DNA of 64,000 nucleotides. Source: Gorillibacterium timonense. Its GTDB lineage: Bacteria > Bacillota > Bacilli > Paenibacillales > NBRC-103111. The translations under genes and the position numbers were made by a program. How positions within the stretch are numbered: the stretch's first letter is position 1; every line of letters starts with the position of its first letter. This document shows, piece by piece, positions 35,149-53,278 of this stretch. The notes below the pieces were generated by a model that saw nothing but the letters and a program-made list of their open reading frames with translations, searched no databases and was not told where the DNA came from. The stretch is from assembly GCF_001457415.1 (NCBI RefSeq), contig NZ_LN881724.1:2046001-2110000 (forward strand), read 5' to 3'.

Positions 35149-36126
35149 CTAGATTCCGAGGAATCTGCGCCTGAGTGTATCGAGTAGAGTCTGCTCCGTC
35201 TGCTTCAGTTCCTGCATGGCGGCTTCAAACCGGTCAACATTTCGATTGCTCCCTCCGCCTGTTTTCCCTCGCATCAGCTGCCCGCGAGCCGTAAAAGCTG
35301 CCTTTTTCGACCGTTGAATCAGGATCCCGAGTCCATCATCCAAATCAGTGGCTGTCAAGAATCGACCGAACAGCTCTCTGGATGAAGCCAGAAAAAAGAG
35401 AGTTCGCTCCAGCCCAATCATCCGATTCAAGTGCAAGCCTTCTCCGTTGGGGGATTCCCTCACCATCGCGCAAATGGAGTCGTAGAGGGCGAAGTCGTCC
35501 AAATACATATCCAGATACTCTTCCAGAGGTTGGCGAAAGTTGGATCGATCCAGCGAATCCAGCTTTTCTCGATCGATCTCGTAATACGCTATGTAATGGG
35601 CGAACGGATACTCAGCTTTGTCATAGCAATCGCGGACGATCGATTCCGCATACCAATCGAAGAAATCCGGCCTCGCATGATCTTGGACAAACCATTCCGG
35701 ACCGTTCTCGTCCGTTCGATACCCCGTGAGCATAAAATTATGCGGCTGCAGCCGAATGCCATAGGTTTCGATTCGATGAGGAACATAGAACCCGTCACCT
35801 GAAAAGAAAACCGCCTTCCCTTCCGCCAATCGCCTCAGAATGCTTGGCTTCGCAAGCTCATAAGTGGGATAGACTTCTTGGAAGGTGCGAACCCCAAGTA
35901 GGTGAAGATCGAAGTAGGGGGAAGGAAAATGCCAGCGGTCTCTCCCATGCACGACAAAGCTGTGATAGATCCGCTGCAGGGGCTCCAGGCATTTGTAGAA
36001 GACAAGCTCCACCGGCACGTTCAGGAGCTTGAGGTAGCTGAGCAGATGCCCCATGTAGCAGTTGAAGAAATCCTCATCATAGCGAGGAATGATCCCTATG
36101 GCTTCTATGACCTCTATACCTTCCAC
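35149..36126 (-). CDS. BtrH-like/C39-like acyltransferase-type protein
   Basis: The 325-residue protein has a papain-like layout in its first half: Cys23 in DEDFFNCYMGHLLSYL, His129 in LQPHNFMLTGYR and Asp149 in FVQDHARPDFF. BtrH, which moves the acyl side chain from its carrier protein to ribostamycin, and related natural-product proteins share this type of N-terminal domain. It is the last gene of the cluster, starting at GTG 36126, 7 bases after GGAGG and 20 bases past the ATP-grasp gene. Overall similarity to BtrH is low, so acyl transfer is a hypothesis. Confidence 0.6.
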   Translation of the reverse strand: MEGIEVIEAIGIIPRYDEDFFNCYMGHLLSYLKLLNVPVELVFYKCLEPLQRIYHSFVVHGRDRWHFPSPYFDLHLLGVRTFQEVYPTYELAKPSILRRLAEGKAVFFSGDGFYVPHRIETYGIRLQPHNFMLTGYRTDENGPEWFVQDHARPDFFDWYAESIVRDCYDKAEYPFAHYIAYYEIDREKLDSLDRSNFRQPLEEYLDMYLDDFALYDSICAMVRESPNGEGLHLNRMIGLERTLFFLASSRELFGRFLTATDLDDGLGILIQRSKKAAFTARGQLMRGKTGGGSNRNVDRFEAAMQELKQTEQTLLDTLRRRFLGI

Positions 36127-36145
36127 TGTCGTCCCTCCGAATATC

Positions 36146-37492
36146 TCAAAACCGATCGGCCATCGTCTCCAGCTTGCGGTTCAACTCATCCACGCGCTCC
36201 CAATTCTCCGCAATAACCAACGCAAACAGCCGTCCATGATACTTGCCGGTGGATTCATCGGCTCTCAGAGGGAGGGTGCCTGAGGTATAAACCAACACTC
36301 CTTCATCGATTGAACGGTTGTAAAGCAATCCTCCTCTCTCTAGCCTTCGGCATACATCAGCGTAGGAAAGGGATTCGTCGCTGACGAGCTTGAAATAGCG
36401 GCTGATGAATTTCGCTCGTTCTCCGAGCACACGAGTGAGAAAGGAGATGTACGTGGAGAGCGTAAACCGCCCGTTGATTTCAATGACAGGGATAATCTCC
36501 CCCTGCTCCGTGATGATCGAATCGATCCCAGCAACTCCTGTATAGCCGATGGAATGCAGGCTTTGTCCAATTTGCTCGCCGAAGCGGCGATACAACTGTT
36601 CCTCTTCACCTTCCCAAGGTACAGGAAACCGGGAGCCGATATACACCGTATCTCGGAGCATCTGCTGCTTGATGGAAAAGACTTCTGTCTCGCCTTCTGG
36701 AGAAACGTAGATTTGATAATTGACGTCGGCCAGCTTGGAGTACCAGCCTTCCACCAGCCAGCGGGCGTCGGGATGGCTTCGGGCATATCGGTTCAAGCGA
36801 AGCAGAAGCGTCTGAAGCTTCTCAGGGGAATCGACGATGTACAACCCTTTGCCGGAAGCTCCGTACGGTTCCTTGATAATCACCTTCTCAAACGCCGGTT
36901 CTCCGGTTGTTAATGCCATGTAGGCCTCGCGAATCTCATCGACGCTCTCACAGATCCGCCCCTTGCAGACGGGGAGTCCAAGCCTTTCGGCGATTTCGCG
37001 GTTGCCGATCTTGTCGTTGACAGCCGCGTTGACCGCAGCCGGTGCGGAAAATAAGGACAGGCCGCAGCGTTCGGCGATTTCTTCCTCCAAGCGGGTTGCC
37101 GCGTAAGGAACAAAGGCGACATCCGCCTCTGTCTCCGCCAGTCGCTTCAACTCCTGCAACAATTCGTCATCGCTTAGAACTAGCTCGGAGATTCCGGCCC
37201 GTTCGTCGCCAGAGGCAGGAACAAGAATCCGCGGGATAGAGAATCCCCATTCGCGAAGCTGCTCCAAGTACTCCGGGTTCGGTGCCTCGCGCAGGATAAG
37301 GATATCCTGTTCTCGGCAGAGCAGCAGATTCATTTCCTCCATCCGGCTTACAATGCGGTCTTCATTCACATCGACGATTCCGGGCTGTACCTGGTTCCAG
37401 AACCTCTCCGCTCCGATATTAAACAGCCAGACGATGATTCCTTTGCAACGTTCCTCCGTCAGCCAACGGATCAAATGGAACGAATCAGACAT
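36146..37492 (-). CDS. ATP-grasp ligase (BtrJ-like)
   Basis: The 448-residue protein has an ATP-grasp core: NDKIGNREIAERLGLPVCKG, VIIKEPYGASGKGLYIV (ATP-binding Lys and glycine-rich loop), and IPVIEINGRFTLSTYISF (metal ligands Glu and Asn). In butirosin synthesis BtrJ is an ATP-grasp enzyme that loads glutamate on the carrier protein BtrI and later caps it. Here the gene overlaps the PLP decarboxylase gene by 8 bases and two carrier proteins are encoded upstream, so aminoacylation of a carrier protein is the leading idea. Confidence 0.75.
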   Translation of the reverse strand: MSDSFHLIRWLTEERCKGIIVWLFNIGAERFWNQVQPGIVDVNEDRIVSRMEEMNLLLCREQDILILREAPNPEYLEQLREWGFSIPRILVPASGDERAGISELVLSDDELLQELKRLAETEADVAFVPYAATRLEEEIAERCGLSLFSAPAAVNAAVNDKIGNREIAERLGLPVCKGRICESVDEIREAYMALTTGEPAFEKVIIKEPYGASGKGLYIVDSPEKLQTLLLRLNRYARSHPDARWLVEGWYSKLADVNYQIYVSPEGETEVFSIKQQMLRDTVYIGSRFPVPWEGEEEQLYRRFGEQIGQSLHSIGYTGVAGIDSIITEQGEIIPVIEINGRFTLSTYISFLTRVLGERAKFISRYFKLVSDESLSYADVCRRLERGGLLYNRSIDEGVLVYTSGTLPLRADESTGKYHGRLFALVIAENWERVDELNRKLETMADRF

Positions 37493-38873
37493 GAATCACG
37501 CGGTCTTCCTCCCGGCAGCCGATTCCATTCTGGCCGCGCAGGAAATCTTCCGCTTCCCCCCTTTCTCTCAGAACGTGATCTTCTCCCTCATAATGGAGAA
37601 CCTCCGCTGGCAGCGAATGGCTTAGAAATAACGCCGGACTGTGGGTCAAGCCGTAAGCCCCCGAGCATTCAACTGCTAGGAAATCTCCTGGCATGGGAGG
37701 AGACAAGCGGACCTTCTGCCCGATCACATCGGTTGGGGTGCACAGAGGGCCGACAACGGTCAGCTCCTCCTTAGCTTCTTCGCCCGGCAAGCTATAGGCG
37801 GATCCTGCAGCTGCAAGAACTCGTTCTTCGCTTCCGTCTGAGTGATCATGAAGGCTGGCTGACTCCTCCGCAGCCGCAACCAGCCGCATTGGGAAATTGT
37901 TGCGGACGTATCTGCCAAGGAAGGCGCTCGCAGCATGTTGGTTTGATCCACCGTCGCAGACGGCAAATTTCGTTCCCTTGCAGCTTTTGACATCCAGGAC
38001 GCGGGTTAAGAAGGTGCCTGCTTCCGCGAGCAGGAAGCGCCCGCTCTCCACGCCAATGCGGACGCCCGCCAGACTCTCGGCGTAACGAGACCAGATGGCG
38101 GCAAGCTCTCGTTTCAAGAGATCGCAATCCAGGGGCTGCTCGCCTGGGAAATAAGGAACGCCGAAGCCGCCGCCCAGATCCAGGAACTGCAGGCGGATTC
38201 CGACGGCTTCGCTAAGAGACAGGGCGAGGCGGATGATCTGCTCCATCGTCTCTGCCAAGACCCCGGCATCGAGCACCTGCGACCCAGTGAAGACATGCAG
38301 CCCGATGAGCTCAATACCCGGAAGCGCCGCGATTTCCTTCAGAGCCGCTTCCGCTGTCCCCTGATCGATTCCAAATTGCGTCGGAACGCCGGTCATCTTC
38401 AAGCCCGCTCCCGCGGCATGGAAATCCGGGTTGATTCGCGCCGAGATCCGGACCGTTGTTCCCTTGGCTTCGGCTAGTCGACTGATCGTCCGCGCTTCCG
38501 TCACGGACTCCACGTTAATGCTGTAGATTTCCTTATCGATCGCAGCCGCTAGCTCCCGCTCCGTCTTGCCCGGACTCGTCCAGACGATCGAACTCGGTGG
38601 AAACCCGGCTGCAAGCGCGACATGCAGCTCGCCAGCCGATGCGATCTCCATGGAGCTGCCCAACCTCCGAAGCAGCTGGCAGATTCCAAGCAGCGGGTTG
38701 CACTTGGCCGAATAGAATACCTCGAATGGTTCCGGCAAGCAGCTCTTGAGCCGCCTGTATTGCCGCTCGATCCAATCGCCGTCGTAGACATACAGCGGTG
38801 TTCCATATTGTTCGGCGAACTGCCGCAACCGCTTGTCTGTTCCTACCTCCGGCATTTCCGCTTCCTTCCTCAT
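37485..38873 (-). CDS. PLP-dependent decarboxylase, DapDC/BtrK fold
   Basis: The 462-residue fold-type III enzyme has the PLP Lys57 in FYSAKCNPLLG, GLHVFTGSQ, DLGGGFGVPYF (phosphate-binding glycine loop), GPLCTPTDVI (catalytic Cys) and ECSGAYGLTHSP. This is the diaminopimelate/ornithine decarboxylase fold. BtrK of the same fold decarboxylates glutamyl-carrier protein to GABA-carrier protein. No lysine-synthesis genes are adjacent, whereas an ATP-grasp ligase and carrier proteins are, which favours a BtrK-like role. ATG 38873 overlaps the upstream stop by ATGA. Confidence 0.85.
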   Translation of the reverse strand: MRKEAEMPEVGTDKRLRQFAEQYGTPLYVYDGDWIERQYRRLKSCLPEPFEVFYSAKCNPLLGICQLLRRLGSSMEIASAGELHVALAAGFPPSSIVWTSPGKTERELAAAIDKEIYSINVESVTEARTISRLAEAKGTTVRISARINPDFHAAGAGLKMTGVPTQFGIDQGTAEAALKEIAALPGIELIGLHVFTGSQVLDAGVLAETMEQIIRLALSLSEAVGIRLQFLDLGGGFGVPYFPGEQPLDCDLLKRELAAIWSRYAESLAGVRIGVESGRFLLAEAGTFLTRVLDVKSCKGTKFAVCDGGSNQHAASAFLGRYVRNNFPMRLVAAAEESASLHDHSDGSEERVLAAAGSAYSLPGEEAKEELTVVGPLCTPTDVIGQKVRLSPPMPGDFLAVECSGAYGLTHSPALFLSHSLPAEVLHYEGEDHVLRERGEAEDFLRGQNGIGCREEDRVIHV

Positions 38874-41512
38874 CGAACACCCTCCCCCGCAGCAGGAACG
38901 ACCGAACCGCCAAAGCCGGTCCGCAACCGTCCCCGATGATAGATCAAAGCATTGTAATAGAACACGGGATTCGTATCAAAGCTGTTTAAGAGAGCGATCC
39001 ACTCCTCTTCCACAGCGTCCGTATTGGTCACAGCGAACAATACCATACGATCCGGACGATACGGATTTGCCGTACACACCATGGCGAAATATTCACCTTC
39101 GACAGCTTCTTCTCCCCAACAGATACCGGAGGCTTCCGCAGTCAGCCCTACGTCGTTAAGCAGCCTCTGCTGCAAAGGTGTCTTGTCTCTTGCGTCCACT
39201 AACACGATCAAATGACGCTCGCCCGGTTCCTCCAGCGAGAGCTCCGCCTCCCGGCAAGTATCATACCGGTAGAAAATGTATCGATCCTTTATTGGATTCT
39301 GCAGCAGATAAGCGAGCTTGCTGAAGAGCGAACTGCGGACGGCGGGCCGGACAACGGCGCATTTGCCCAGGTAGATCCGTTTCATTCCCATCTGATTCTC
39401 GTCGATGAGGATGTCTTGGTACCACTTCTCGAATGCTTCTGGTGTCATAAGCTCGGTTGAAACGATGCGGGCTTCAGCGCTCGATGTATCGAGTTCAATC
39501 GAGGTATACCCACCTAGATGGATGCTGCAAACGGAGCCGTTCACGAAGAGCACCACATCCTCGTCCAAACCGAGGTCTTTTCGACTCAGCACTACCCGGA
39601 GCCGATCAATATTCCGAGTTTCGAGCTCGATCCTCTCGGACGAGAGGATATCGGCCTGCACACGGGTAGAATCACCAGGAACACTGAGCCAGATGATCTG
39701 AACCCAGTGCGACTTCACAAAGCAGGGATCGGGCGGAGCAAAGGCGATCCATCTCGGAAAGCGGTCCTTCTGGAAGGTCAGGAGCTGCCTCAGCAAAACC
39801 CGAGAATTATGAAGCGCATTCAGCTCGTTGTGCATAAATCCGCTGTAGACCGCCGTGCGCGCTTCTGGCAGTCGGCCCCACAAATCGATGAGGCGCGTGC
39901 TGTTGAAGAACCAGTTCTCGTAAGCGCAGACGCCGAGTACCGGCATATCGCCGAGATTGTCGAGCCAGGCGTATTCCGGCTTGTGGATGTTCAGCGCGAT
40001 CTCTCCGGCTACCGATGCGATTGCAGCGAACAGATCAGGCACGGCGAAGGCGGTCCGGTACGTCTTGTGCGTTCCGGTACAGAAGCCGATGCCATATAGC
40101 CGATCCCGGTCGAGCTTCCATTCGGCTGCGACATGCCGGATGGTCCGAACCGTCTGAAGATCATCCGTATAATTGCTGCGTCCGATGCCTACGATTTGGA
40201 TGATCACGGCTTCCGATTGAGACAGATCCTTGATCCAAGGCAAATCCACGGGATAATTGCGCGCCATCGCATCGTGAAAAAAGAACACGCCCGGGTAGCT
40301 CTTGCCCGGATCGTACCCATCCGGCAAAAGCACCGTATAGGCCAAGTAGGCGTCGCCTGTTTCTCTTAGCCGATACCGGATAATTCTGCGCGAAGCCGCG
40401 GCGGAAAGAGCCAAGCGGTTGGTTGCGAGCGCGGTTTCCATCTCGTCCAGCTTCTCCAACAAGGTCTCCCGAATGTCATAGGGCATATACTGATTTAACG
40501 ATTCGAACGCATGCGGCAGCTGCATGAGCTGACGGAAGGATTCCGCCTCCCCGGCAGATAGCTGTGTCGTTAACGCGACTTCGGAAAGCAATTTTTCTCT
40601 CATTGCCGCTTCATCGCCTGCGAACAGGAAAACCGCTTTCGCGGATAGTCCTGCACCACGCGCCTTCAGAACGAGCACGCCTGACGCCGTCTTCGGAATG
40701 GCGAGTGCGCAGACGCTTCCGACTTGGGCAGTTTCGGAAGTAAGCCGCTCGCCGGATCGGGTCTCCAGAATCACCTCGATCGGTTTCCCGGTATGGCCGA
40801 CTCCAGCATAGCGGGGAACGACGGTTATCCGCAGCAGTTCTCCTGGAGCGACCTTCCATTTCTCCGGATACAGGACCAAGCTCCGCTTCATTCCCTCGAA
40901 TCGCTCCCAATCCAGATAAGCATAGGCATCCTTTTCCCTCTCCAGTCTGGCGAGGGGCTGAAAGCGAAGGAGGAACTCCTGGGATGTGAGCGGATAACGC
41001 AGACCCAGTGGCAGCTCAACCAGAATCGGATTATTACCTTGCTTTAACCGGACGCGAACAAGGAGGTCCTTCACAACCCAATCCTCGCTCGCGAGGATGA
41101 TCGGCTCGCCGTTAATCCACAGCCTCAGCGGAGATGGCAGGAAGGTAATGACATACAGAAGCATCTCCACAGGCGAAGGGCTGTACATGTTGGTGACGGC
41201 GTAGAGGTAACGGTCGGGCCTGCGCTCGAACCGTTTGCTCGGCTCGTTCGGCTCCTGAAACGAACCGATGATATCGGAATTGTAATAGCTCCAATTGTCT
41301 TCCAGCTCGCTGCCAGCGAGCAGATTCGCTTCAGCCGTGAGCAGAATTCGACCGGACTCGTCGAGGTAAGGCTTATCCCCCCAAGAACGGGACGCCGGCT
41401 TGGTCACGGCTCGGACCAGCCAACGGGAGAGCGAAACGGGATCGTGGGGACCGAAGGTAACCGGTAAATGAACCGTCGTCAGCAATTTCTCCAAAAACTC
41501 GGTCAATGCCAT
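38870..41512 (-). CDS. Large alpha/beta-hydrolase protein with Cys in the nucleophile elbow
   Basis: The 880-residue protein has a long N-terminal region of unknown fold with beta-rich segments. Next comes an esterase/PHB-depolymerase-like alpha/beta-hydrolase domain (about 390-590), then another uncharacterised region. The hydrolase domain shows YTVLLPDGYDPGKSYPGVFFFHDA and DRLYGIGFCTGTHKTYRTAF, where family members have G-x-S-x-G. Here Cys478 takes the Ser place, and His561 in GFMHNELN fits the catalytic His. No signal peptide is seen. Possible roles are thioesterase, acyltransferase or cyclase on a carrier-bound chain, all inferred. Confidence 0.7.
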   Translation of the reverse strand: MALTEFLEKLLTTVHLPVTFGPHDPVSLSRWLVRAVTKPASRSWGDKPYLDESGRILLTAEANLLAGSELEDNWSYYNSDIIGSFQEPNEPSKRFERRPDRYLYAVTNMYSPSPVEMLLYVITFLPSPLRLWINGEPIILASEDWVVKDLLVRVRLKQGNNPILVELPLGLRYPLTSQEFLLRFQPLARLEREKDAYAYLDWERFEGMKRSLVLYPEKWKVAPGELLRITVVPRYAGVGHTGKPIEVILETRSGERLTSETAQVGSVCALAIPKTASGVLVLKARGAGLSAKAVFLFAGDEAAMREKLLSEVALTTQLSAGEAESFRQLMQLPHAFESLNQYMPYDIRETLLEKLDEMETALATNRLALSAAASRRIIRYRLRETGDAYLAYTVLLPDGYDPGKSYPGVFFFHDAMARNYPVDLPWIKDLSQSEAVIIQIVGIGRSNYTDDLQTVRTIRHVAAEWKLDRDRLYGIGFCTGTHKTYRTAFAVPDLFAAIASVAGEIALNIHKPEYAWLDNLGDMPVLGVCAYENWFFNSTRLIDLWGRLPEARTAVYSGFMHNELNALHNSRVLLRQLLTFQKDRFPRWIAFAPPDPCFVKSHWVQIIWLSVPGDSTRVQADILSSERIELETRNIDRLRVVLSRKDLGLDEDVVLFVNGSVCSIHLGGYTSIELDTSSAEARIVSTELMTPEAFEKWYQDILIDENQMGMKRIYLGKCAVVRPAVRSSLFSKLAYLLQNPIKDRYIFYRYDTCREAELSLEEPGERHLIVLVDARDKTPLQQRLLNDVGLTAEASGICWGEEAVEGEYFAMVCTANPYRPDRMVLFAVTNTDAVEEEWIALLNSFDTNPVFYYNALIYHRGRLRTGFGGSVVPAAGEGVR

Positions 41513-41551
41513 CGTCTGTCCTCCTTCGCTTAGGAAAGCTAGAACCGATTT

Positions 41552-42280
41552 TCAACGATGATCGGCAGCCTGCTCCTGCCGATCAGCCGTAGTGGCGATT
41601 TCACGGGAAGCGGCCCAGCTCTGCTTGCGCTCGATGAGCGCCCATACGTCTCCCAGCACCTCGGCCGCAGTGAAATCCTGAACGATTCGCGGAGGTGGCT
41701 GGCCCTTTCCCGAAGCCTCCGCAAACAGCTTCAAATAACACTCCCGCATGTTTTCCAAATAGAGCAGCTCTTTATGGGGCTCCGCAGTGAGCTGATACTT
41801 GCGGCTCGGATGATACAGCGCTTTACCTCGTAAGGCGATCCGATGGAAGCAGACGGCAGGAGGAGTATCGCAGAAGACGATCAAATCAGGCAGCGGCGCC
41901 CCTGTGTACCAAGGCCGTCCGATCCACCCAGCAGCGCCGTTTACGTTGTCTCGGGCCATGCCCGTATAGATGTACCGATCGGCAATAACCACTTCTCCCC
42001 GCTTCAGGCGGGGTTTCATGAGGGTCTGATAGCTCCGATGAAATCCGATCCATTGAAGAAGGCTGTATACAGCAGGGTTCATGATCCGACAGACGTCCAG
42101 AATCCGGACGAGCCTGCGAATAACCGGATTGGCATTCCATTCCGCGACGGAAACCGTCACTCCCCGATTTACAAGCTCGCGTGTTAACCGGTTGATTCCC
42201 TCGCTTTTGCCGGAACCGCTCACTCCCTCGAATACGATCAGGCAGCCCGTCGCGCGAGCTTTCCTCGCTTTTCCTTTCAC
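41552..42280 (-). CDS. Thymidylate-kinase-like P-loop kinase
   Basis: The 242-residue protein starts at GTG 42280. It has the P-loop IVFEGVSGSGKSEG, DRYIYTGMARD (the DRY/H motif of dTMP kinases), and LPDLIVFCDTPPAVCFHRIALRG (lid side). The nucleotide kinase fold is clear, but the lid and length differ from housekeeping Tmk. In this cluster it may phosphorylate the product or a nucleotide-like intermediate; a membrane-anchored 5'-nucleotidase in the same operon would be the natural counterpart (inference). Confidence 0.8.
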   Translation of the reverse strand: MKGKARKARATGCLIVFEGVSGSGKSEGINRLTRELVNRGVTVSVAEWNANPVIRRLVRILDVCRIMNPAVYSLLQWIGFHRSYQTLMKPRLKRGEVVIADRYIYTGMARDNVNGAAGWIGRPWYTGAPLPDLIVFCDTPPAVCFHRIALRGKALYHPSRKYQLTAEPHKELLYLENMRECYLKLFAEASGKGQPPPRIVQDFTAAEVLGDVWALIERKQSWAASREIATTADRQEQAADHR

Positions 42281-42339
42281 ATTCCCCCCCCTGTCCCTCT
42301 ATAGGTAATAGGCCGAGTGCGACGGAGGACGGACCCTCC

Positions 42340-44699: not shown

Positions 44700-44750
44700 C
44701 GTTTATCACAAAACGGATGCCGATTTCGGGTCGTTCAGCCTCAAAGCCGA

Positions 44751-46280
44751 TTAACTGCCCGTCTGCAGCAGGCTATCGTACATCGCTTTGACTTCCTTCT
44801 TGTTGATCTTGCCGATGACATTGCGTGGAATGCTCGCGACGATGTGAATTTCCTTTGGCACCTTGCGGTCCTCTAATTGCGCGGCGCACCACCGGAACAG
44901 CTCCGCACTTGCCGCCTGACGACCCTCTTTCAAACAGACAAAAGCGACGATCCGCTGCCCAAGCTTACGGTCCTCAACGCCGAGTACCACGGCTTCGCTG
45001 ATGGCTTCGTGCCGCAGCAGAACCTCCTCGATGTCCGCTGGGTATGCGCGGCTGCCTCCCTGCGAGATCATGTCGTCGCTGCGGCTCAGCACATAAAATC
45101 GTCCTTCCGCATCCCGGTACCCAATGTCCTTCACACGCAGGCCGTTCGGAGTAAGCACCTCGCGGGTGGCCTGTTCCTGCTTGTAATAGCCATCCATGAG
45201 GTAATCACTCTGAATAAACAGCTCCCCGATCTCGTCAACCTCCGCTTCGGTTCCGTCTTCGCGGAGAATCTTGATCGAGCAGCCGTCGATCGGTTTGCCG
45301 ATCACCCAAGGCAGGTTGATCACTTCGTCATGCAACCCGAGAGTGACGCGGGCTACCGCTTCCGAGGCGCCATAAGCGTTATACACCTTAGCCTCTGGCG
45401 CACAACGAGCTGCTTCCTGATAGATGCCAATCGGATTGATCATGCCGCCGATCAAGATTCGCTTGAGCGAATGAAGGTCATAGGATTTAAGTCCGGGATA
45501 CTCGAGCATCTGCAGCAGCATGGTCCGTACGATATAGAACTGGTTCGCTCCGTGATCCTGAATGGCTTTCAGGAAGATCGCCGGGTGAAAGACGTTGTTC
45601 ATCAGGATGATCGCACCGCCCCGGCTGATCGCCATAAAGACATCTCCCGCAATGGGACTCGCCTGCGCGAGCGATCGGGGAAGAATCGTGCGGTCACCTT
45701 CTTGAAAATCCAAGCGTTCAGCAATGGCGCAAGCATTTCCGACCACGGCGCGATTGGAGAGAAGAATTCCTTTCGGCCGCGCAGTGGAACCTGACGTAAA
45801 GCAGATGCCGAAGGTGTCGGCCCCGAGCTCCGGAAGCGGCCGCGGAAGCTTGTCCGGCACTTCATGGACGCGGAAGGTTTCGTCCGCCTGTACTTCAAGA
45901 ACGACGCGGACATTGTGGGAGTCGGACCGATCCCTGATCGCTTCCCAGCCCTTCGTATCGGTGATCAGCAGTTCCACATCTGCGTAATCCAAGAGCTCGA
46001 TCAGTGCATCTCCCTTGAACTGATACGACAAGGAGACGAACACTTTCCCGCTTGCGTTCAGGCCCAGCATACTGATGAGAAAAGCGGGACAATTGGGGAG
46101 ATAAACGCCGCCCATCCGAAAGCTCCACTTCCCGATCAGCTCCGAGAAGCGAACCGCCTGTTCATAGATCTCTTCATAGCTGTAAGTTCGGTCGTTGTAG
46201 ATCAAGACCAGTTCTTGCCTGTATTTCCCGCAGCTCTCCACAAATAGCTCCCAGGGCGAATTCGCCTTCTTCATGTGCAA
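44751..46280 (-). CDS. AMP-binding acyl/aminoacyl-CoA or -carrier ligase (ANL family)
   Basis: The 509-residue adenylating enzyme has the ANL core motifs: GICFTSGSTARPKGILLSN (P-loop, A3), NAYGASEAV (A5), ELFIQSDYLMDGYY, RVKDIGYRDAEGRFYVLSRSDDMISQGGSRAYPADIEEVL (A7-A8) and RNVIGKINKKEV with the catalytic Lys (A10). Stand-alone ANL enzymes activate a carboxylate and hand it to CoA or a carrier protein. Two carrier proteins are encoded in the cluster. The acid cannot be predicted with confidence. Confidence 0.9.
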   Translation of the reverse strand: MHMKKANSPWELFVESCGKYRQELVLIYNDRTYSYEEIYEQAVRFSELIGKWSFRMGGVYLPNCPAFLISMLGLNASGKVFVSLSYQFKGDALIELLDYADVELLITDTKGWEAIRDRSDSHNVRVVLEVQADETFRVHEVPDKLPRPLPELGADTFGICFTSGSTARPKGILLSNRAVVGNACAIAERLDFQEGDRTILPRSLAQASPIAGDVFMAISRGGAIILMNNVFHPAIFLKAIQDHGANQFYIVRTMLLQMLEYPGLKSYDLHSLKRILIGGMINPIGIYQEAARCAPEAKVYNAYGASEAVARVTLGLHDEVINLPWVIGKPIDGCSIKILREDGTEAEVDEIGELFIQSDYLMDGYYKQEQATREVLTPNGLRVKDIGYRDAEGRFYVLSRSDDMISQGGSRAYPADIEEVLLRHEAISEAVVLGVEDRKLGQRIVAFVCLKEGRQAASAELFRWCAAQLEDRKVPKEIHIVASIPRNVIGKINKKEVKAMYDSLLQTGS

Positions 46281-46424
46281 ACTCCTCCTCTTGCGTTGTC
46301 ATCCTTCTCCGTAAGAATATGAAGCGTGAGCGCGGCGTCGATCCGCATGGAAACCGGATGTGGATACCTTCGTTGTGAGGTCGACAACGTACTAGGGAGT
46401 CCCCATTGGTATTGCTGCTGGTAA

Positions 46425-47567
46425 CTACGCCAGCGTCTCCAGCCAAGCGACCAGGCGCTCCTCCGCTTCCCGGGCCAGAACGAGCTGCTCCGCCATGTCC
46501 ACAAGAAGTTGAGGCTTGCCCGTCAAGCCAAACTTTAAGGCGAGATTGGCGACGATGTCATACCGCATGGAGGCTTCCTTGAGGCATTCTTCTGCGGACT
46601 CCTCCAACGACCAGCCAAACTCCGTCCGGGCAGCCGTTAGGAATGCGAGGAACCGTTTGCGTTGGCGGGCGACCGACTTCCATGCAGAATTGTAATAGAA
46701 CCGGAATTGATTCCGATCCTCCTGCTCGATCGGTTTTTCAAGCTTGGCATGGAGTGCCGTGATGAAAGCATCCAGCGCACGAAACCCGCAGACTTGACCG
46801 AGCACCTCTTCCTCCCCCCTCATTCTTCGGCAGCTTCCGAGCACCAGCTCCTTCGCGAGAAGCTCAGTCAACCGGAAGGACGGATGCAGATGGAGCTCCA
46901 TCCAGAGGTTCTCCATGGGGCGCACCGTGGTTCCGCTCACCGGATTAACCGTCACGCTCGGTGTAGTCCGCCCTGCGACAACTTCCTCTATCGGAAGGGT
47001 ACCGTCAAAATCACTGCTCGACATCGTATATTTGTCGAACAGGTAATACACGCCCTCTTCCAAGTCATAGCCGGTTATCACGACGGCATGGACGCCATGC
47101 TGCTGCTTGTAGGCGCGGTGATAACTGATTTCGTACAGATTGACAACGACGATCACCGCTTCCCCTTCGTCGATCAGCTGCTTCAGCCGATCATGAGCCA
47201 CTTGAGGATCCTCGTGCGTATACAGCCGGATTTGGAAATGCTCGGCATCAACCGCTGAGACGGCCTTCCCCTCTAGGTACGCGGACGTTGCTGGCAAATA
47301 ACCATAGGCCATCGAAGAGTTCAGCTCTTCTTCCGTGAAATAGAAGGTGGCCGAGGCATGGTTTAGAAAGTTCACTCCGATGTATTCGCTGTCCGGGTCA
47401 TACATGAACGACAGGTAATCCGCCAAAGCCAAGGCGGGATTGATTCCTTTGCGCTGCAGCAAAGCGCCGTAAGCGTTATAGAAGCAGTCGTTGACATAAG
47501 GCTCGTAATAGCGCGGAACATCCTCAAGCACTCGCCGCTTCGGAATCGCTTGGCCGCTCGCCTCCAT
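46425..47567 (-). CDS. BtrH-like N-terminal-domain protein (C39-like fold)
   Basis: The 380-residue protein has Cys28 in YVNDCFYNAYGALLQRKG, His160 in QHGVHAVVITGYD and Asp178 in YLFDKYTMS, a papain-type triad in the pattern of the butirosin biosynthesis protein H N-terminal domain. The start at 47567 directly follows the stop of the carrier protein gene at 47568, so the two are coupled. That favours a role acting on the acyl group held by that carrier protein. It resembles the shorter protein encoded at the other end of the cluster in its triad layout. Confidence 0.75.
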   Translation of the reverse strand: MEASGQAIPKRRVLEDVPRYYEPYVNDCFYNAYGALLQRKGINPALALADYLSFMYDPDSEYIGVNFLNHASATFYFTEEELNSSMAYGYLPATSAYLEGKAVSAVDAEHFQIRLYTHEDPQVAHDRLKQLIDEGEAVIVVVNLYEISYHRAYKQQHGVHAVVITGYDLEEGVYYLFDKYTMSSSDFDGTLPIEEVVAGRTTPSVTVNPVSGTTVRPMENLWMELHLHPSFRLTELLAKELVLGSCRRMRGEEEVLGQVCGFRALDAFITALHAKLEKPIEQEDRNQFRFYYNSAWKSVARQRKRFLAFLTAARTEFGWSLEESAEECLKEASMRYDIVANLALKFGLTGKPQLLVDMAEQLVLAREAEERLVAWLETLA

Positions 47568-47828
47568 TCAAGCCGCCTCCAGCTTCCCGCTGACATAAGT
47601 AGCGATAACGCCCGCCGTCGAGAAGAACTCATCGGTTAACGAACTGCTGTCGAAGAGAATGCCGAACGCCTCCTCGATCTCCACGAGCAGCTCCACCAGC
47701 ACCAGGGAATCCACACCGTAGGTCTCGCGCAGATTCGCATCAGGCCGGATGCCTTCCCCTCCAAGCGGTGCAAAACTCGCGATGATCTCGCATACCTGTT
47801 GTTCCACCTGTTCTTTGCTCATGGTCAT
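47568..47828 (-). CDS. Acyl carrier protein
   Basis: The 86-residue carrier protein has TYGVDSLVLVELLVEIEEAFG, in which the Ser of DSL receives the phosphopantetheine arm. I chose ATG 47828 (MTMSKEQVEQQV), 8 bases after AAGGAGG; the ATG six codons earlier contains the ribosome binding site. It abuts the BtrH-like gene with no gap. No ACP synthase or fatty acid genes are nearby, so it belongs to the specialised pathway. Confidence 0.9.
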   Translation of the reverse strand: MTMSKEQVEQQVCEIIASFAPLGGEGIRPDANLRETYGVDSLVLVELLVEIEEAFGILFDSSSLTDEFFSTAGVIATYVSGKLEAA

Positions 47829-47873
47829 GCGTTCTTCCTCCTTCATTCATGGTCAATCGTCATGGTCAAACGT

Positions 47874-49466
47874 CTATTTGTATCGCTTATTCGTTACGGT
47901 GATGCGTCCTTCCGTTTCAGGAGAGACCGTCCCCTTTTCCTTCAAGTAAGCTGCGAGCACGTCGCGCAGAAGTGCGCCCTTGCTGAGCCGCTTCGCATTC
48001 TCGAACTCGGTGAAGTTGTCGCCCCCGGTGACCAAATAGTCGTTCGTGGCTACCTTGTATTTCTTCTCCTTGTCGAGCGGCTGGTCGTTCATCGTGACGC
48101 TGACCAGCCGCTTGCCTGCCGGCTTGGAGCCGTCAAAGGTATAGGCAATCCCCGATACCTGCAGGAAGCCGCCGTTGCTGGAGCCGTAAGGCCAAGCCCG
48201 AAGCCCGCGCTCAATAGCCTCGTAGATCTTCTCCCCCTCCACTTCGACGGTCATCAAGGAGTTGACGAAGGGCAGCGGCTTGCCGACATCATAGAGCGTG
48301 ATGTCTCCCTTGCTTATGCTCTCGCGAATACCTCCTCCGTTCAGCAGCGCAAGGTCCGCCTTGCCCTCCTCGCGCATGGCGTCCGTGATCAGATTGGCGA
48401 GATTAGTTTCCTCCGTCCGGACATGTGTCCGCATTCCGTCCAGCTCGACTTTCGAATGACCGACAACCGCTTTGCCCTTCTCGAGAGCGATGGCATGGTA
48501 CTTCTCCGCGACGGCGGCAACGGCTTTGTCTTCCTTGGACACATCCTTGGATTGATGGATGGACCATTCGACATGCTTGACCTTGCCGTTCTTGAAGTAC
48601 AGCTCGGCCAAACCGACATGCGTGCTGTACGAACCGGCTTCAACGAGATAGGTGTCGCCGATCTTCTCCGCCTTCTTGTACAGCCAGTGGTGGTGGCCGC
48701 AGAGCACCAGGTCGATGCCGGGCACCTTGCTCACGAGCTCCTTGTCCAGATCGTCGCCCAAGTGAGAAACGAACACGATGGCGTTCACGCCTTGTTCCTG
48801 GAGCTCGGCTACAATCTTGCGGGCTTCCGCCTCCGGTTCAGTGAAGGAGACATCCGGTTCTCCGAACACGTTCATGTTCGACAGGGAATCCGGGACGGTC
48901 AGACCGAAGATGCCGATCTTGAGGCCCCCTTTTTCCTTGATGATATAGGAAGGAAACGCATGCTCCCCTTTGTAGAACGTATTGCCGGACAGAATGGGAT
49001 AGTTCAGCTCCTGCTTGATCTCCAGCATGCGCTTGAAGCCGAAATCGAAATCGTGGTTCCCGGCGACCATGGCATCATAGCCCATCATATTCGCCACTTC
49101 GACGATGCCCTTCGCTTCATCGACATTCGCTTCATTCGTACCGTGGAACATGTCTCCACTATCGAGAAACAGGGAATTCTTGTTTTTCGCGCGAAGCTCG
49201 TCGGCTACCCCCTTCATGAGGGGCATGCCCATTTCCACATTTACCTCGTCAAGGGTGTAGTAGCCTCCATTCACTTCGTTATAGACAATGTTTCCGTGGA
49301 TGTCCGCCGTGTTGATGACCGCTAGCTTGTCGTCATAAAAACCGGCCTTCAGCTTCCAGTCCTCAAGAGGTGCAAACCGATAGGTCAGATAGCCGATGAC
49401 TCCTAACAGCAATACCGTCAACACCAGAATCGGAGTGTAGGAGCGTTTGGTCGCCTTCGCGTTCAT
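47874..49466 (-). CDS. Membrane-anchored 5'-nucleotidase/metallophosphatase
   Basis: The product of about 530 residues from ATG 49466 has one N-terminal hydrophobic helix (about residues 9-29) followed by a metallophosphatase domain: NTADIHGN, DSGDMFHGT, AGNHDFDFG, VFVSHLGDD and VLCGHHHW. The C-terminal 5'-nucleotidase domain has LLNGGGIRESISKGDITLYDV, FLQVSGIAYTFD and VATNDYLVTGGDNFTEF. The enzyme should face outward, anchored to the membrane. In this cluster it may remove a phosphate from an exported inactive precursor (inference). An ATG at 49517 overlapping the upstream stop is an alternative start but has no ribosome binding site. Confidence 0.9.
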   Translation of the reverse strand: MNAKATKRSYTPILVLTVLLLGVIGYLTYRFAPLEDWKLKAGFYDDKLAVINTADIHGNIVYNEVNGGYYTLDEVNVEMGMPLMKGVADELRAKNKNSLFLDSGDMFHGTNEANVDEAKGIVEVANMMGYDAMVAGNHDFDFGFKRMLEIKQELNYPILSGNTFYKGEHAFPSYIIKEKGGLKIGIFGLTVPDSLSNMNVFGEPDVSFTEPEAEARKIVAELQEQGVNAIVFVSHLGDDLDKELVSKVPGIDLVLCGHHHWLYKKAEKIGDTYLVEAGSYSTHVGLAELYFKNGKVKHVEWSIHQSKDVSKEDKAVAAVAEKYHAIALEKGKAVVGHSKVELDGMRTHVRTEETNLANLITDAMREEGKADLALLNGGGIRESISKGDITLYDVGKPLPFVNSLMTVEVEGEKIYEAIERGLRAWPYGSSNGGFLQVSGIAYTFDGSKPAGKRLVSVTMNDQPLDKEKKYKVATNDYLVTGGDNFTEFENAKRLSKGALLRDVLAAYLKEKGTVSPETEGRITVTNKRYK

Positions 49467-49509
49467 GTACCAACCTGCCTTCCGCTTGATCGGGCATGAG
49501 CGCCCGTCC

Positions 49510-50343
49510 TCAGCCATACATGGAATTGCCTGTGCTCGTGTAGCTGCGGACCCCTCTGCGCCAAATCAGATACACCAGGATGAACATCAGGATTCCGACA
49601 ACCGGGGTCAGATAAAGGTAACCCTCCCAAAAAGGCGCGAAATCGCTTTTGCGCAGGAAATACTGAGCCGGAAAAAAATTAACGAATGAAAAAGGAACCG
49701 CAAAGATCAACAGCTTCTGAATGAAAACCGGATAGAAGGTGATCGGGTACCCCGCGATGCGCCGGGAATTGAAAAACAGCAAATTGCGCACGTTCTCCGT
49801 CTTGATCGCCCAGAAGCTGAAGCAGGCTGACAGTAAAAATAGAGATGCCTGAATCAAGGTGCCTCCGATGATCACGAGGACATAGTACAAGGCGTTCTTC
49901 CAGGTCCAATCGATACCGACCGAGAAGGCTGTGTTCATGAAAAGCAGTACACCGACGACCCCATGGCCGATTGTGGCGGAGAAATCGATGCGCGCCGCTA
50001 CGATCTGGAACATGAGCCCGACTGGCCGCGTCAGCAGGCGGTCAAACTCTCCGGAATGCACCATGCCGTCAAAATCCCGAATACCCGCGAACAAGAAGAC
50101 GAACAGGCTGTAGCTGAGGAAGAGAAAGCTGTAGAGAAACAGCAGCTCGTTCAAATCCCAGCCGCGGATGTGGAGGAACCTCAGAAGAATCAGCAGCATG
50201 ACGACCACGCTGATCATCTCCCGGCAAAAGATCGCGATGGCGATCAAGCTGCGGTTCAGCTTGTATTCCAGCACCAGCTTCATATTGAGCTGCGAATAGC
50301 GGAACAGCAGAGCCGCTTTTTCGGCCAGAGTATGCTTAGGCAC
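49510..50343 (-). CDS. ABC-2 type permease (DUF990-like)
   Basis: The 277-residue protein has about six hydrophobic helices and the family pattern FDRLLTRPVGLMFQIVA and SFWAIKTENVRNLLFF. It is one of two ABC-2 permeases of the same family encoded next to each other, followed upstream by their ATPase. The trio is an exporter and is the natural candidate for product export or self-protection. Confidence 0.88.
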   Translation of the reverse strand: MPKHTLAEKAALLFRYSQLNMKLVLEYKLNRSLIAIAIFCREMISVVVMLLILLRFLHIRGWDLNELLFLYSFLFLSYSLFVFLFAGIRDFDGMVHSGEFDRLLTRPVGLMFQIVAARIDFSATIGHGVVGVLLFMNTAFSVGIDWTWKNALYYVLVIIGGTLIQASLFLLSACFSFWAIKTENVRNLLFFNSRRIAGYPITFYPVFIQKLLIFAVPFSFVNFFPAQYFLRKSDFAPFWEGYLYLTPVVGILMFILVYLIWRRGVRSYTSTGNSMYG

Positions 50344-50346
50344 GGC

Positions 50347-51153
50347 TCATCCCCCCTGTACGCTCAGCTTGCGGGAAGCCCTATGCCACAGTACAATCCC
50401 GGCCAAGCCCAGAATCAATACCCAAGCCAGTTGTCGAAGCATGCCCGTCACAATTTCATCCTCGGGGATCATGCCGAGATAGATCTGGATCGGCGTGGAA
50501 TAGATCGAGGCAAACGGGGTGGCTTGGACGAAATCGGCGAGCCACTCCGGCATGAACCAAACGGGAATCAACGCGCCGGAGAAGATCAACACCGCCGCAT
50601 CCTTAATCGTGACGAGGCTGAACGTCCAGTAGAACCAGAAGGAGCTGATCCAGACGAGGAAGTTCAAGTTGTACAGCACCAGGAAGCCGAGCAAGGCGCT
50701 GACGGCGAAATAGAGTGCCATCTGCACGGAAAACGGCGGCAGCATTTGAAACAAAATGATCGACAACAGCAGAGCCGGGCTCAGTTGAAGCAAGAGACGG
50801 AAGACGAGCGTACCGAGCGTGTTAGAGAAGACGAACATCCGGAAGCTGATCGGCTTTAAGAGATCGGAGGAGATCAGTCCGCTTCGCACCTTCACCTCGA
50901 TAAAATATTCATCCATCACATACAGGGTCTGCAGCAGAAAGGAGAGCACAACGTATGTCGCCATCATCTTGAACTGCAGCCCTTCGAGAGCTCCCTCTTC
51001 TTCGTAAATTGCCCGCCATATCGAAATGTTGACGAAAATCATGACGATGGCGTTCAGCACCCCGGCGATATATTCGGCGCGGTAGACCAGGTTGTTCTGA
51101 AAGGACTTCTTAGCCAACTCCAGATAAGCTCGGCTCAATCCGGATCCCCCCAA
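50347..51153 (-). CDS. ABC-2 type permease (DUF990-like)
   Basis: The 268-residue permease has about six helices and VRSGLISSDLLKPISFRMFVFSN, matching the position of the equivalent loop in its neighbour. It overlaps the ATPase gene by 44 bases and ends 3 bases before the second permease gene, so all three are co-translated. The pair is probably a heterodimer. Confidence 0.88.
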   Translation of the reverse strand: MGGSGLSRAYLELAKKSFQNNLVYRAEYIAGVLNAIVMIFVNISIWRAIYEEEGALEGLQFKMMATYVVLSFLLQTLYVMDEYFIEVKVRSGLISSDLLKPISFRMFVFSNTLGTLVFRLLLQLSPALLLSIILFQMLPPFSVQMALYFAVSALLGFLVLYNLNFLVWISSFWFYWTFSLVTIKDAAVLIFSGALIPVWFMPEWLADFVQATPFASIYSTPIQIYLGMIPEDEIVTGMLRQLAWVLILGLAGIVLWHRASRKLSVQGG

Positions 51154-52120
51154 GGTAAATTTCCCGGATGAGCGCTTCGATGTCGGGCTCCTGCACCGTC
51201 AAATCCACGATGCTATAGCTCTGCGACAAGCGGTTGATCAGCTGGGAAACTTGAATTTCGTCCTTGCGGAACTTCAACCACAGCTTGCTGCCCTGCCGAT
51301 CCACGGTCTCAACCCCTGGATAACTTAACGGTTCCACCTTCTCGGCGAATTCCACAGCGAGGATTCGTTCCTTTCCGTATGCCGCTTTGATCGCGTCCAT
51401 GGAACCGTCATAGATCTTGCTTCCGTGATCGATGATGATCAGCCTTTTGCAGGTCTGTTCGATATCATCCATGTCATGCGTCGTGAAGAGCATCGTCGTC
51501 TGCTTCTCCCGATTCACGTAACGCAAGAACTCCCGGATCTTCTCCTTGGCGACCACGTCGAGCCCGATGGTCGGCTCGTCGAAGAAGATAATCTCTGGAT
51601 CGTGCAAGAGCGCCGCCGCAATATCCGCCCGCATCTTCTGCCCGAGGCTCAACTGCCGCACCGGAGTCTTGATAAAGTCCTGAAGCCCGAGCAGCTCGCT
51701 GAACATGTCCAAATTCCGCATGTACACCGGCTTCGGAATCTTGTAGATGTGCTTGAGTAACTCGTACGTATCGAGCACCGGCAGATCCCACCAGAGCTGG
51801 GTCTTCTGCCCGAAGACGACGCCCATGCGGGCCGCGATCCGCTTCCGTTCCTTTTCCGGGTTCATGCCGCATACTTCTATGCTTCCGGAGGTAGGAGACA
51901 GGATGCCGGTCAGCATCTTGACCGTCGTCGATTTGCCGGCGCCGTTCGGGCCGATGAAGCCGACCGTCTCTCCCTTCTCGATCGCGAAGCTGATACCGTC
52001 CACCGCGCGGACATGCTTGAATTCCGGTATCAGCAAGCTTTTGACCGCTCCTGCGATGCCTTTGGAGCGGACGCTAACGCGATATTCCTTCACCAGCTCC
52101 TGTATCTGAATAGCTGCCAT
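51110..52120 (-). CDS. ABC transporter ATPase
   Basis: The 336-residue ATPase has Walker A GFIGPNGAGKSTTVKML, Q-loop VVFGQKTQLWWDLPVLD, signature LSLGQKMRADIAAALL, Walker B IIFFDEPTIGLD and H-loop TTHDMDDIEQ. QKTQLWWDLP is characteristic of the ATPases that partner DUF990 permeases. The C-terminal 90 residues form the usual accessory domain. It powers the exporter encoded just downstream. Confidence 0.94.
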   Translation of the reverse strand: MAAIQIQELVKEYRVSVRSKGIAGAVKSLLIPEFKHVRAVDGISFAIEKGETVGFIGPNGAGKSTTVKMLTGILSPTSGSIEVCGMNPEKERKRIAARMGVVFGQKTQLWWDLPVLDTYELLKHIYKIPKPVYMRNLDMFSELLGLQDFIKTPVRQLSLGQKMRADIAAALLHDPEIIFFDEPTIGLDVVAKEKIREFLRYVNREKQTTMLFTTHDMDDIEQTCKRLIIIDHGSKIYDGSMDAIKAAYGKERILAVEFAEKVEPLSYPGVETVDRQGSKLWLKFRKDEIQVSQLINRLSQSYSIVDLTVQEPDIEALIREIYLGGIRIEPSLSGVG

Positions 52121-52124
52121 GCTC

Positions 52125-52391
52125 TCAACCGCCTCCCGTCGATAGAAGGGCCTGCTTGGTCTCCACGATCAACCGCAGCTTCTTGACCGTGTTCAGACTG
52201 TCCAGGAGAAGCTCTTCATCTTCAAACACAATGCCGAACTCTTCCTCCAGATTGACGACGATGTCCATACAATTGAGCGAGTCAAGGCCAAGAACCCCCA
52301 GCGGCTCATCGTCCGAACGGGTTTTGACATTTTGCGGCTCTACTCGGAATACCATCGCAACAATCTCACAGATTTTGTCTCGAATATCCAA
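52125..52391 (-). CDS. Acyl carrier protein
   Basis: A second carrier protein, 88 residues from TTG 52391, 11 bases after AAAGGAG. LGVLGLDSLNCMDIVVNLEEEFGIVF contains the phosphopantetheine Ser in DSL. The frame is open further upstream, and a GTG six codons earlier overlaps the ribosome binding site, so the exact start is uncertain. It is only distantly like the other carrier protein of the cluster, so each probably has its own partner enzymes. Confidence 0.85.
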   Translation of the reverse strand: MDIRDKICEIVAMVFRVEPQNVKTRSDDEPLGVLGLDSLNCMDIVVNLEEEFGIVFEDEELLLDSLNTVKKLRLIVETKQALLSTGGG

Positions 52392-52627
52392 ATTTCGCTT
52401 CACTCCTTTCCCGTTCCCCGATTTCTGCACGACTTTGCTACACGGTGCCGTTTCTTGTTGATGGTATAAAAATACCGCAATCTGCATGATTGCCCCAGAT
52501 GCCGACCGTCACCAACTCCCCATCCAACCTGCATGGCAAGATGGACAAAAAGAAGGACGCATTGCCAAACCTTCTGGCTTTGCGTCCTCTTCCATAATAT
52601 GGTATAGGTAATCAGACTCACTGCTCG

Positions 52628-53278
52628 TTACGCCCCGATATCATGCTCCACGGCAAAGATGGCGAGCTGGACTCGCGTTTTCAGATTCAGCTTTTTCAAG
52701 ATGGAGGAAATGGTGTTCTTGACCGTTCCTTCCGAAAGGTACAAGCTGCGGGCGATCTCACGGTTTTCCTTGCCCAGCTTGATCTCGCGGATGACCTCGG
52801 TCTCCCGCTTGGTCAGGGGGTATGTCACTTCTGGCTTGTCAAGTGAAGGTGAAGAGTCCGTTGTGCCGTTCAGGCTGCGAACGATGCTTTGCAGCGTATG
52901 TCCTTGGATGACGCTCAGCCCCATGGCGACGATTTTTACCGTCATGACGAGCTCCGTCGGATCGATCTCCCAGCAGACGCTCCCCGTTGCTCCCCGCTGT
53001 ATTCCCCAAGCGATCTTCTCCTCGTCGTGCGTATTCGACAACAGGATCGTCTTGGTATTCGGATGGGGCATCATGCGCCAATCCCGATCGCTTGTCATCC
53101 CTTCGGTGAGTTCGGCATTCATCAGCAGGATATCCGGTTTCTCCCTTTCGCACAAAAGGAATGCATTCTCAAGAGAAGCAGCCGCACCGATCACGCAGAG
53201 ATCCGTATCTTTTTCAAGAATCAATCGGATTCCTTCCCGCATTATCTTTCGGTTTTCCGCCAATACCACCTTGATCAT
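52628..53278 (-). CDS. NarL/LuxR-type regulator with degenerate receiver
   Basis: The 216-residue protein has a receiver-like N-terminal half and a LuxR helix-turn-helix (LTKRETEVIREIKLGKENREIARSLYLSEGTVKNTISSILKKLNL). The phosphoacceptor position is Asn54 (PDILLMNAEL), the acidic pocket reads AEN rather than ADD, and the conserved Lys region reads GATGSVCWEID without Lys. It therefore cannot be phosphorylated in the usual way. No kinase gene is adjacent. It is the first gene of the cluster and probably its pathway-specific regulator. Confidence 0.9.
   Translation of the reverse strand: MIKVVLAENRKIMREGIRLILEKDTDLCVIGAAASLENAFLLCEREKPDILLMNAELTEGMTSDRDWRMMPHPNTKTILLSNTHDEEKIAWGIQRGATGSVCWEIDPTELVMTVKIVAMGLSVIQGHTLQSIVRSLNGTTDSSPSLDKPEVTYPLTKRETEVIREIKLGKENREIARSLYLSEGTVKNTISSILKKLNLKTRVQLAIFAVEHDIGA

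Follow-up and report, generated by a model that had tools for sequence, protein, structure and literature searches.

The side chain of butirosin is valued for protecting aminoglycosides against resistance enzymes, and amikacin copies it. The pathway that makes it (BtrI, BtrJ, BtrK, BtrO, BtrH and BtrG) employs a stand-alone carrier protein, an ATP-grasp ligase, a decarboxylase and a BtrH-family protein. BtrO belongs to the luciferase-like monooxygenase (LLM) superfamily (PMC2922099). Carrier-bound decarboxylation by pyridoxal phosphate (PLP) enzymes of the BtrK kind is described as shown for vicenistatin (PMC11284099) and as proposed for bolagladin (PMC7756342). Here, we analyze a run of 16 genes in a 64,000-nucleotide stretch of the Gorillibacterium timonense genome (contig NZ_LN881724.1, positions 2,046,001 to 2,110,000; hereafter the window). 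Our data indicate that this cluster represents a real, conserved and apparently undescribed family with butirosin-like carrier chemistry.

The run spans positions 35149-53278 of the window. All 16 consecutive minus-strand open reading frames claimed in a preliminary description of this DNA are present, and Pfam and NCBIfam searches mostly returned the families first noted, including two PP-binding carrier proteins and, in each case, the families named for the ANL ligase, kinase, 5'-nucleotidase, exporter and ATP-grasp ligase. Overlap between neighboring genes, said to be common, is seen at 5 of the 15 junctions (44, 8, 4, 4 and 8 bases, with the nucleotidyltransferase frame counted to 43488), and the 44-base overlap depends on a TTG start. 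Pfam detected no condensation or ketosynthase domain of the nonribosomal peptide synthetase or polyketide synthase (NRPS/PKS) type among the 16 genes. Among the titles and abstract openings listed by searches of the open-access PMC literature, none concerns such a cluster, in line with its having been called undescribed. The genes are listed below in minus-strand order. Relatives are designated by genome (G) and locus (L) numbers, with a and b marking two loci of one genome.

52628..53278, minus strand: orphan NarL/LuxR-type response regulator (Pfam GerE 3.3e-16, Response_reg 1.6e-8)
52125..52487, minus strand: carrier protein 1, true start probably downstream (PP-binding 3.7e-9; Ser70 of GLDSL invariant in 15 rows)
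51110..52120, minus strand: ATP-binding cassette (ABC) exporter ATPase, DrrA-like (ABC_tran 1.2e-28; ~65-71% identity in other loci)
50347..51153, minus strand: ABC-2 permease 1 (ABC2_membrane_6 1.2e-15)
49510..50343, minus strand: ABC-2 permease 2 (ABC2_membrane_6 2e-43)
47874..49517, minus strand: UshA-like 5'-nucleotidase with one N-terminal hydrophobic anchor (5_nucleotid_C 9.2e-48, Metallophos 2.3e-12)
47568..47846, minus strand: carrier protein 2 (PP-binding 3.1e-12; Ser47 invariant in 13 rows)
46425..47567, minus strand: BtrH-like C39-fold protein (BtrH1), predicted acyl-carrier acyltransferase (BtrH_N, PF14399, 2.7e-15)
44751..46280, minus strand: AMP-forming (ANL) ligase, predicted amino acid:carrier protein ligase (AMP-binding 1.1e-52)
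43488..44699, minus strand: MNT-fold nucleotidyltransferase, TAA-interrupted (PF14907, NTP_transf_5, 4.2e-43)
42340..43491, minus strand: GT-B/GT28-like protein, tentative glycosyltransferase (C-terminal motif by eye; 56-58% homologues in G596 and Cohnella)
41552..42280, minus strand: thymidylate-kinase-like P-loop kinase (Thymidylate_kin 6.8e-16; best PDB match 2plr, 2.8e-19)
38870..41512, minus strand: alpha/beta-hydrolase-fold protein with a Cys nucleophile and beta-rich flanking regions (C478 aligned with the GxSxG Ser of esterases)
37485..38873, minus strand: BtrK-like PLP decarboxylase, predicted aminoacyl-carrier decarboxylase (Orn/DAP decarboxylase Pfam 9.9e-49; BtrK best PDB match)
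36146..37492, minus strand: ATP-grasp ligase, predicted BtrJ-like role (PreATP-grasp and PGM1_C; relatives adjoin a BtrK-like gene)
35149..36126, minus strand: second BtrH-like protein (BtrH2), accessory (BtrH_N E 0.017, below cut-off; 32% relative beside carriers in L147)

Genes of the relatives were called with a simple codon-usage script and cross-checked by tblastn. A gene is considered absent when no tblastn match was obtained at E 1e-3 within the stretch fetched; for the LLM, CYTH, radical S-adenosylmethionine (SAM), G510b ligase and Cohnella sulfotransferase checks, the threshold was E 1e-5. The hydrolase (880 residues), compared with 104 genomes of the family, has strong homologues in 5 others and weak ones in 13 more; the scan of the named collection found it in Cohnella cholangitidis, Paenibacillus sp. 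SYP-B3998, P. marchantiophytorum, P. sp. N3.4 and P. athensensis. Strong BtrH1 matches (>289 bits) occur in 11 of 392 genomes of the order, its own included, and a BtrH1 search of the plasmid collection gave no match.

The cluster core (carrier 1, ABC exporter, anchored 5'-nucleotidase, BtrH, carrier 2, ligase, nucleotidyltransferase, thymidylate-kinase-like kinase, decarboxylase and ATP-grasp) recurs in 11 other genomes, Cohnella counted. The shared order is carrier 1, ABC ATPase, two permeases, 5'-nucleotidase, BtrH1 and carrier 2 (in either order) and ligase, followed by nucleotidyltransferase, kinase, (hydrolase), decarboxylase and ATP-grasp. Because this gene order recurs in other genomes, the cluster is more than a chance assembly of genes. 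In two genomes, G503 and G510, the core is split: the first locus holds regulator, carrier, BtrH1, kinase, hydrolase, decarboxylase and ATP-grasp, and the second holds carrier, ABC genes, 5'-nucleotidase, nucleotidyltransferase, carrier, ligase and BtrH1, with an acyl-CoA dehydrogenase gene adjoining. Two cluster copies each are found in G035 and G050. One of these, G050a, is a remnant; another, G035a, has frame breaks and is without a BtrH1 match, and G035 has one additional BtrH1 copy standing apart. In G049, at least two genes have frame breaks. The regulator heads the cluster in G596, G018, G035a, G035b, G013, G503a and G510a, and its Cohnella copy is split in two frames; tblastn gave no match to it at the cluster head in G036, G049 or G050b, and in G518 found only a reverse-strand relative after the cluster. 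Directly upstream of the regulator lies a CYTH-domain gene in G018 (L030:1250-1843; Pfam 1.1e-16), G013, G503a and G510a, and none is present in the window. Collectively, the cluster appears to be a mix-and-match family carried by a minority of Paenibacillus-like bacteria.

On sequence grounds, the decarboxylase is of the BtrK type, not a LysA. Its best PDB relatives are two BtrK entries, at 305 bits, compared to 185 bits for the best diaminopimelate (DAP) decarboxylase; the preliminary description had assigned it a BtrK/DapDC fold. Where LysA has CESxD, the motif is CTPxD in the window enzyme (CTPTD), in BtrK, in 10 further enzymes of the cluster family and in 4 relatives on plasmids; the alignment comprised 11 cluster decarboxylases, the window's among them, with G036, G049 and the G050a remnant not included. 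In CESxD, the Glu serves to bind the distal amino group of DAP. The genome's own LysA, with the motif CESGD, is encoded elsewhere. If the cluster enzyme were nonetheless a second LysA working on free DAP, in ordinary amino-acid metabolism and next to its neighbors by chance, one would point to its score against the LysA model TIGR01048, which at 287.7 bits lies near the cut-off of 297.9. That cut-off is not reached, however, and the CTPTD motif, the closer kinship to BtrK, the dedicated LysA and the linkage to carriers in relatives all speak against LysA function, which we rejected; we regard this explanation as extremely improbable. Membership in the exosortase A (XrtA)-associated family was likewise rejected, as the score against TIGR03099 (354.2 bits) falls below the cut-off (478.45).

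The same association is seen on plasmids. From 278 plasmid records with a BtrK-like match we sampled regions for viewing, and in all six annotated ones (a seventh was unannotated) carrier and AMP-ligase genes lie within 9 kb of the BtrK-like gene. On two Streptomyces plasmids (L117, L120), a BtrK-like decarboxylase, holo-acyl carrier protein synthase, AMP-ligase and carrier stand beside ectoine synthase and ectA, possibly a carrier-linked variant of ectoine-type chemistry.

The ATP-grasp gene encodes PreATP-grasp and PGM1_C domains (Pfam), and BesA and PGM1 are among its PDB matches (best 45.7 bits). A search of 299 genomes of the class yielded 17 matches at E 1e-20, its own included. We fetched eight neighborhoods from the 16 other matching genomes, and in every one the next gene is BtrK-like. 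A carrier-like gene (blastp E 6e-4 to 2e-9) is also present in all eight stretches, touching the ATP-grasp/decarboxylase pair in six. Given this linkage, the ATP-grasp, decarboxylase and carrier genes appear to form a module that other cluster types also employ. This linkage, together with the BtrK-like decarboxylase and its CTPxD motif, supports the butirosin-type carrier logic originally proposed for the locus. One such type in the class (L123, L124, L125, L126 and L129) has the ATP-grasp, BtrK-like decarboxylase and carrier genes together, along with further genes that by eye resemble those of ketoacyl synthase III and, in some loci, of MATE exporters.

Three matches to the phosphopantetheinyl transferase (PPTase) family exceed the cut-off in the genome. 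A clue to how carrier 2 is charged comes from G503b, where the ANL ligase is replaced by a class II aminoacyl-tRNA-synthetase-like protein (PF00587 6.6e-10). Its best PDB match is the amino acid:[carrier protein] ligase bll0957 (2.3e-16). Among NCBIfam models, amino acid--[acyl-carrier-protein] ligase scores 7.4e-25 and serine--tRNA ligase is slightly ahead at 6.2e-27, both far below cut-off. The gene in the G510b slot is 81% identical to that of G503b. Because a putative amino acid:[carrier] ligase fills the slot in these two genomes, the likely job of the ANL ligase is to load an amino acid on carrier 2, and the exchange lends further support to the butirosin-type logic.

BtrH1 belongs to the BtrH family (PF14399), with C28, H160 and D178 invariant in 15 aligned rows, and is predicted to be an acyltransferase. 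Of the two BtrH-like proteins announced earlier, it is the firm one; BtrH2 matches the family weakly, although a Cys and a His are found by eye at the expected kind of place. BtrH2 had no tblastn match in any relative's cluster and forms a separate family, with matches in 38 of the 392 order genomes, its own included. Its closest relatives (46-47%) are in G503 and G018, both of which carry the cluster elsewhere in the genome. Other BtrH-like genes lie on the ATP-grasp side in G050b, G510a, G518, G013 and G035b (BtrH1 profile E 6.5e-5 to 0.011, weak), so this end of the cluster repeatedly, if variably, carries a second BtrH-like protein. In G057, the 32% BtrH2 relative sits beside carriers and other BtrH-like genes; this locus (L147, contig C29) encodes three BtrH-like proteins in all, together with two carriers, one of them recognized by eye, and a 962-residue protein that contains an ANL domain.

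In the alpha/beta-hydrolase-fold protein, C478 aligns with the catalytic Ser (GxSxG) of three esterases. All 10 cluster copies have Cys as the nucleophile, whereas the four aligned distant relatives have Ser; shorter, weaker matches were not included. A Cys nucleophile would favor acyl transfer from a thioester over hydrolysis and suggests that the protein is an acyltransferase. Its AlphaFold model is of low confidence (predicted local distance difference test, pLDDT, 56.8), and the Foldseek matches, to esterase and dipeptidyl peptidase IV folds, support an esterase-like alpha/beta-hydrolase core and nothing beyond. Of 15 relatives' loci tested, only G035b and G013 have an LLM (PF00296 3.3e-37 and 1.9e-38), and both are without the hydrolase.

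Kinase, nucleotidyltransferase, exporter and 5'-nucleotidase are conserved as a group, and their catalytic residues are invariant. In the kinase, the P-loop, DRY and RGK are invariant in 13 rows, as are D72/H74, N154/H155, H252, H275 and H277 of the 5'-nucleotidase; D152, D154 and D222 of the nucleotidyltransferase are invariant in 12. A defense function was considered and rejected: 10 of the 16 proteins were compared with PADLOC, and only the kinase matched, through two weak P-loop hits (E 3e-4, 6e-4). The family assignment of the nucleotidyltransferase stands, with the qualification that its frame is interrupted by an in-frame TAA at 43794-43796, ~100 codons before the natural end, beyond which the same frame runs on to 43488. 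Homologues in Cohnella and G596 read through this site. The truncated protein retains the three active-site acids but lacks a conserved stretch at its C-terminus. Only one hydrophobic stretch, at the N-terminus (residues 26-49), is seen in the 5'-nucleotidase, so this enzyme most likely works outside the membrane. The simplest reading of these four functions would be that a product is exported in phosphorylated or nucleotidylated form and then relieved of this group outside. Streptomycin phosphate offers a parallel, being exported phosphorylated and losing its phosphate outside.

The same genes could instead point to a nucleoside- or nucleotide-based metabolite, in which the kinase and nucleotidyltransferase would build the scaffold and the carriers would deliver an aminoacyl part. 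The kinase is indeed closest to thymidylate kinases, and the nucleotidyltransferase is conserved along with the 5'-nucleotidase. However, thymidylate-kinase-like kinases may accept varied substrates, and no nucleoside-assembly enzymes were recognized among the 16 genes. We therefore consider a nucleoside scaffold decidedly unlikely.

The 'GT28-like' label given earlier to the product of 42340-43491 is unproven. The protein has no Pfam or NCBIfam match; its best PDB match is a processive glucosyltransferase at chance level (E 0.099), and its AlphaFold model, built from two sequences, is unusable (pLDDT 37.8). A C-terminal GKPGAGTxID...GE motif, read by eye, is GT-B-like. Relatives of this protein directly adjoin an ATP-grasp gene in G415, G208, G169 and G072, tying its family to that of the cluster's ATP-grasp ligase; the neighborhoods sampled are those of these four genomes, a further weak match being in G130. 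These loci (L090/L093 in G415, L091 in G208, L092 in G169 and L033 in G072) represent another cluster type: all four have ATP-grasp, GT28-like and radical SAM genes, and carrier-like genes are present as well. ABC exporter genes are present in G415 and G169, and a BtrK-like gene was matched only in G072. In the cluster itself, a sulfotransferase gene lies between kinase and hydrolase in Cohnella (L034:8552-9406) and G596 (L074:13065-14168; Pfam 2.1e-11), the two copies being 57% identical, and in Cohnella an APS-kinase-like gene, read by eye, follows. This insertion hints at a sulfated product variant in these two relatives.

A glycosyltransferase-like protein, an ABC-2 exporter and a sulfotransferase in two relatives would also suit a cluster that decorates a cell-surface polymer or glycolipid, putting carrier-bound amino acyl groups on an ABC-2-exported glycan or lipid, much as DltA/DltC serve D-alanylation. 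In keeping with this, a BtrK-like/carrier/ligase set adjoins exopolysaccharide genes on a Shinella plasmid. No polymerase, flippase, DltB/DltD-like protein or lipid-carrier transferase was recognized among the 16 genes, however, and the patchy distribution of BtrH1, the rarity of the glycosyltransferase-like gene in relatives' cluster loci, and the swapping of LLM, acyl-CoA dehydrogenase and sulfotransferase, which resembles small-molecule tailoring, argue against such a role. We consider surface decoration unlikely.

The explanation we lean towards, with little more than even confidence, is a megasynthase-free biosynthetic cluster with butirosin-type carrier logic, including masked export. 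It draws on gene content, conserved order, intact catalytic residues, the BtrK-type motif, module linkage and the Ser/Cys difference. PPTases encoded elsewhere in the genome would arm both carriers, and carrier 2 would receive an amino acid from the ANL ligase. Next, an acidic amino acid, of the Glu or Asp type, would be joined by the ATP-grasp ligase to a carrier or to the amine already carried; its decarboxylation in place by the BtrK-like enzyme would leave an omega-amino acyl chain. Transfer of this chain to an amine or hydroxyl of an acceptor would fall to the BtrH-like protein and the Cys-nucleophile hydrolase, and the glycosyltransferase-like protein may add a sugar. Finally, the kinase and nucleotidyltransferase would equip the product with a phosphate or nucleotide, and once the ABC-2 pump had exported it, the membrane-anchored 5'-nucleotidase would strip the mask outside. 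Our best guess for the product is thus an amino-acyl metabolite built on carriers, which would leave the cell with a phosphate or nucleotide attached and be unmasked outside; each reaction and substrate here, the masking step and the antibiotic-like, small-molecule nature of the product are inferred.

Several observations weigh against this scheme. No acceptor-scaffold gene was recognized, and enzyme functions in the cluster family are predictions. The nearest PDB relatives of the ANL ligase are acyl-CoA ligases, not amino-acid adenylating enzymes. PGM1 and BesA ligate free amino acids, and the ATP-grasp ligase could do the same. The proposed masking by phosphate or nucleotide is based on gene company, and with its nucleotidyltransferase truncated the pathway may be impaired in this genome. 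The LLM is absent (tblastn) from G518 and G050b, two of the four hydrolase-free loci that hold the decarboxylase, and the tentative glycosyltransferase is limited to the window and the cluster loci of Cohnella and G596. A broader claim, namely a new megasynthase-free pathway class in the Paenibacillus order that combines carrier-bound ligation and decarboxylation, BtrH-type and Cys-switched hydrolase acyltransferases, masked self-protected export and external unmasking by a 5'-nucleotidase, is offered only tentatively, as a possibility that we would not yet bet on.

Were the favored scheme true, carrier logic would be reused outside aminoglycosides without a megasynthase, new chemistry would be available from the ligases, oxygenases and transferases that the clusters exchange, and the family would supply acyltransferases for side-chain engineering. 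Detection rules keyed to NRPS/PKS domains could miss such clusters. The carrier logic itself has precedents; the product is the point of specialist interest.

Among known systems, the XrtA/PEP-CTERM pair TIGR03099 and TIGR03098 resembles the decarboxylase (354 bits) and the ANL ligase (210 bits), both below the cut-offs (478 and 592), and no exosortase or polysaccharide genes were recognized among the 16. The ATP-grasp ligase shares its two domains and weak similarity with PGM1 and BesA but is accompanied by a BtrK-like gene and a carrier. In VinN/VinL/VinO of vicenistatin, and by proposal in BolO/BolC/BolN of bolagladin, an amino dicarboxylate is attached by an AMP-ligase to a stand-alone carrier, on which a PLP enzyme then decarboxylates it; those systems feed polyketide or peptide assembly, whereas the 16 genes here include no condensation or ketosynthase family. 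Butirosin provides a close parallel (BtrK compared by sequence; BtrJ, BtrH and BtrO by family or role). The cluster resembles its side-chain pathway in part and is not a butirosin cluster. As the preliminary description held, no BtrG or 2-deoxystreptamine genes were recognized among the families of the 16 genes (the rest of the genome was not searched), and no BtrO-like oxygenase was found among them by Pfam, nor any LLM relative in the whole window by tblastn. Common to both are the stand-alone carrier, ATP-grasp ligase, BtrK-type decarboxylase and BtrH-family protein, joined in two relatives (G035b, G013) by an LLM, the class of BtrO; to these the window cluster adds a second carrier, an ANL ligase, a Cys-type hydrolase, a thymidylate-kinase-like kinase, a nucleotidyltransferase and a 5'-nucleotidase.

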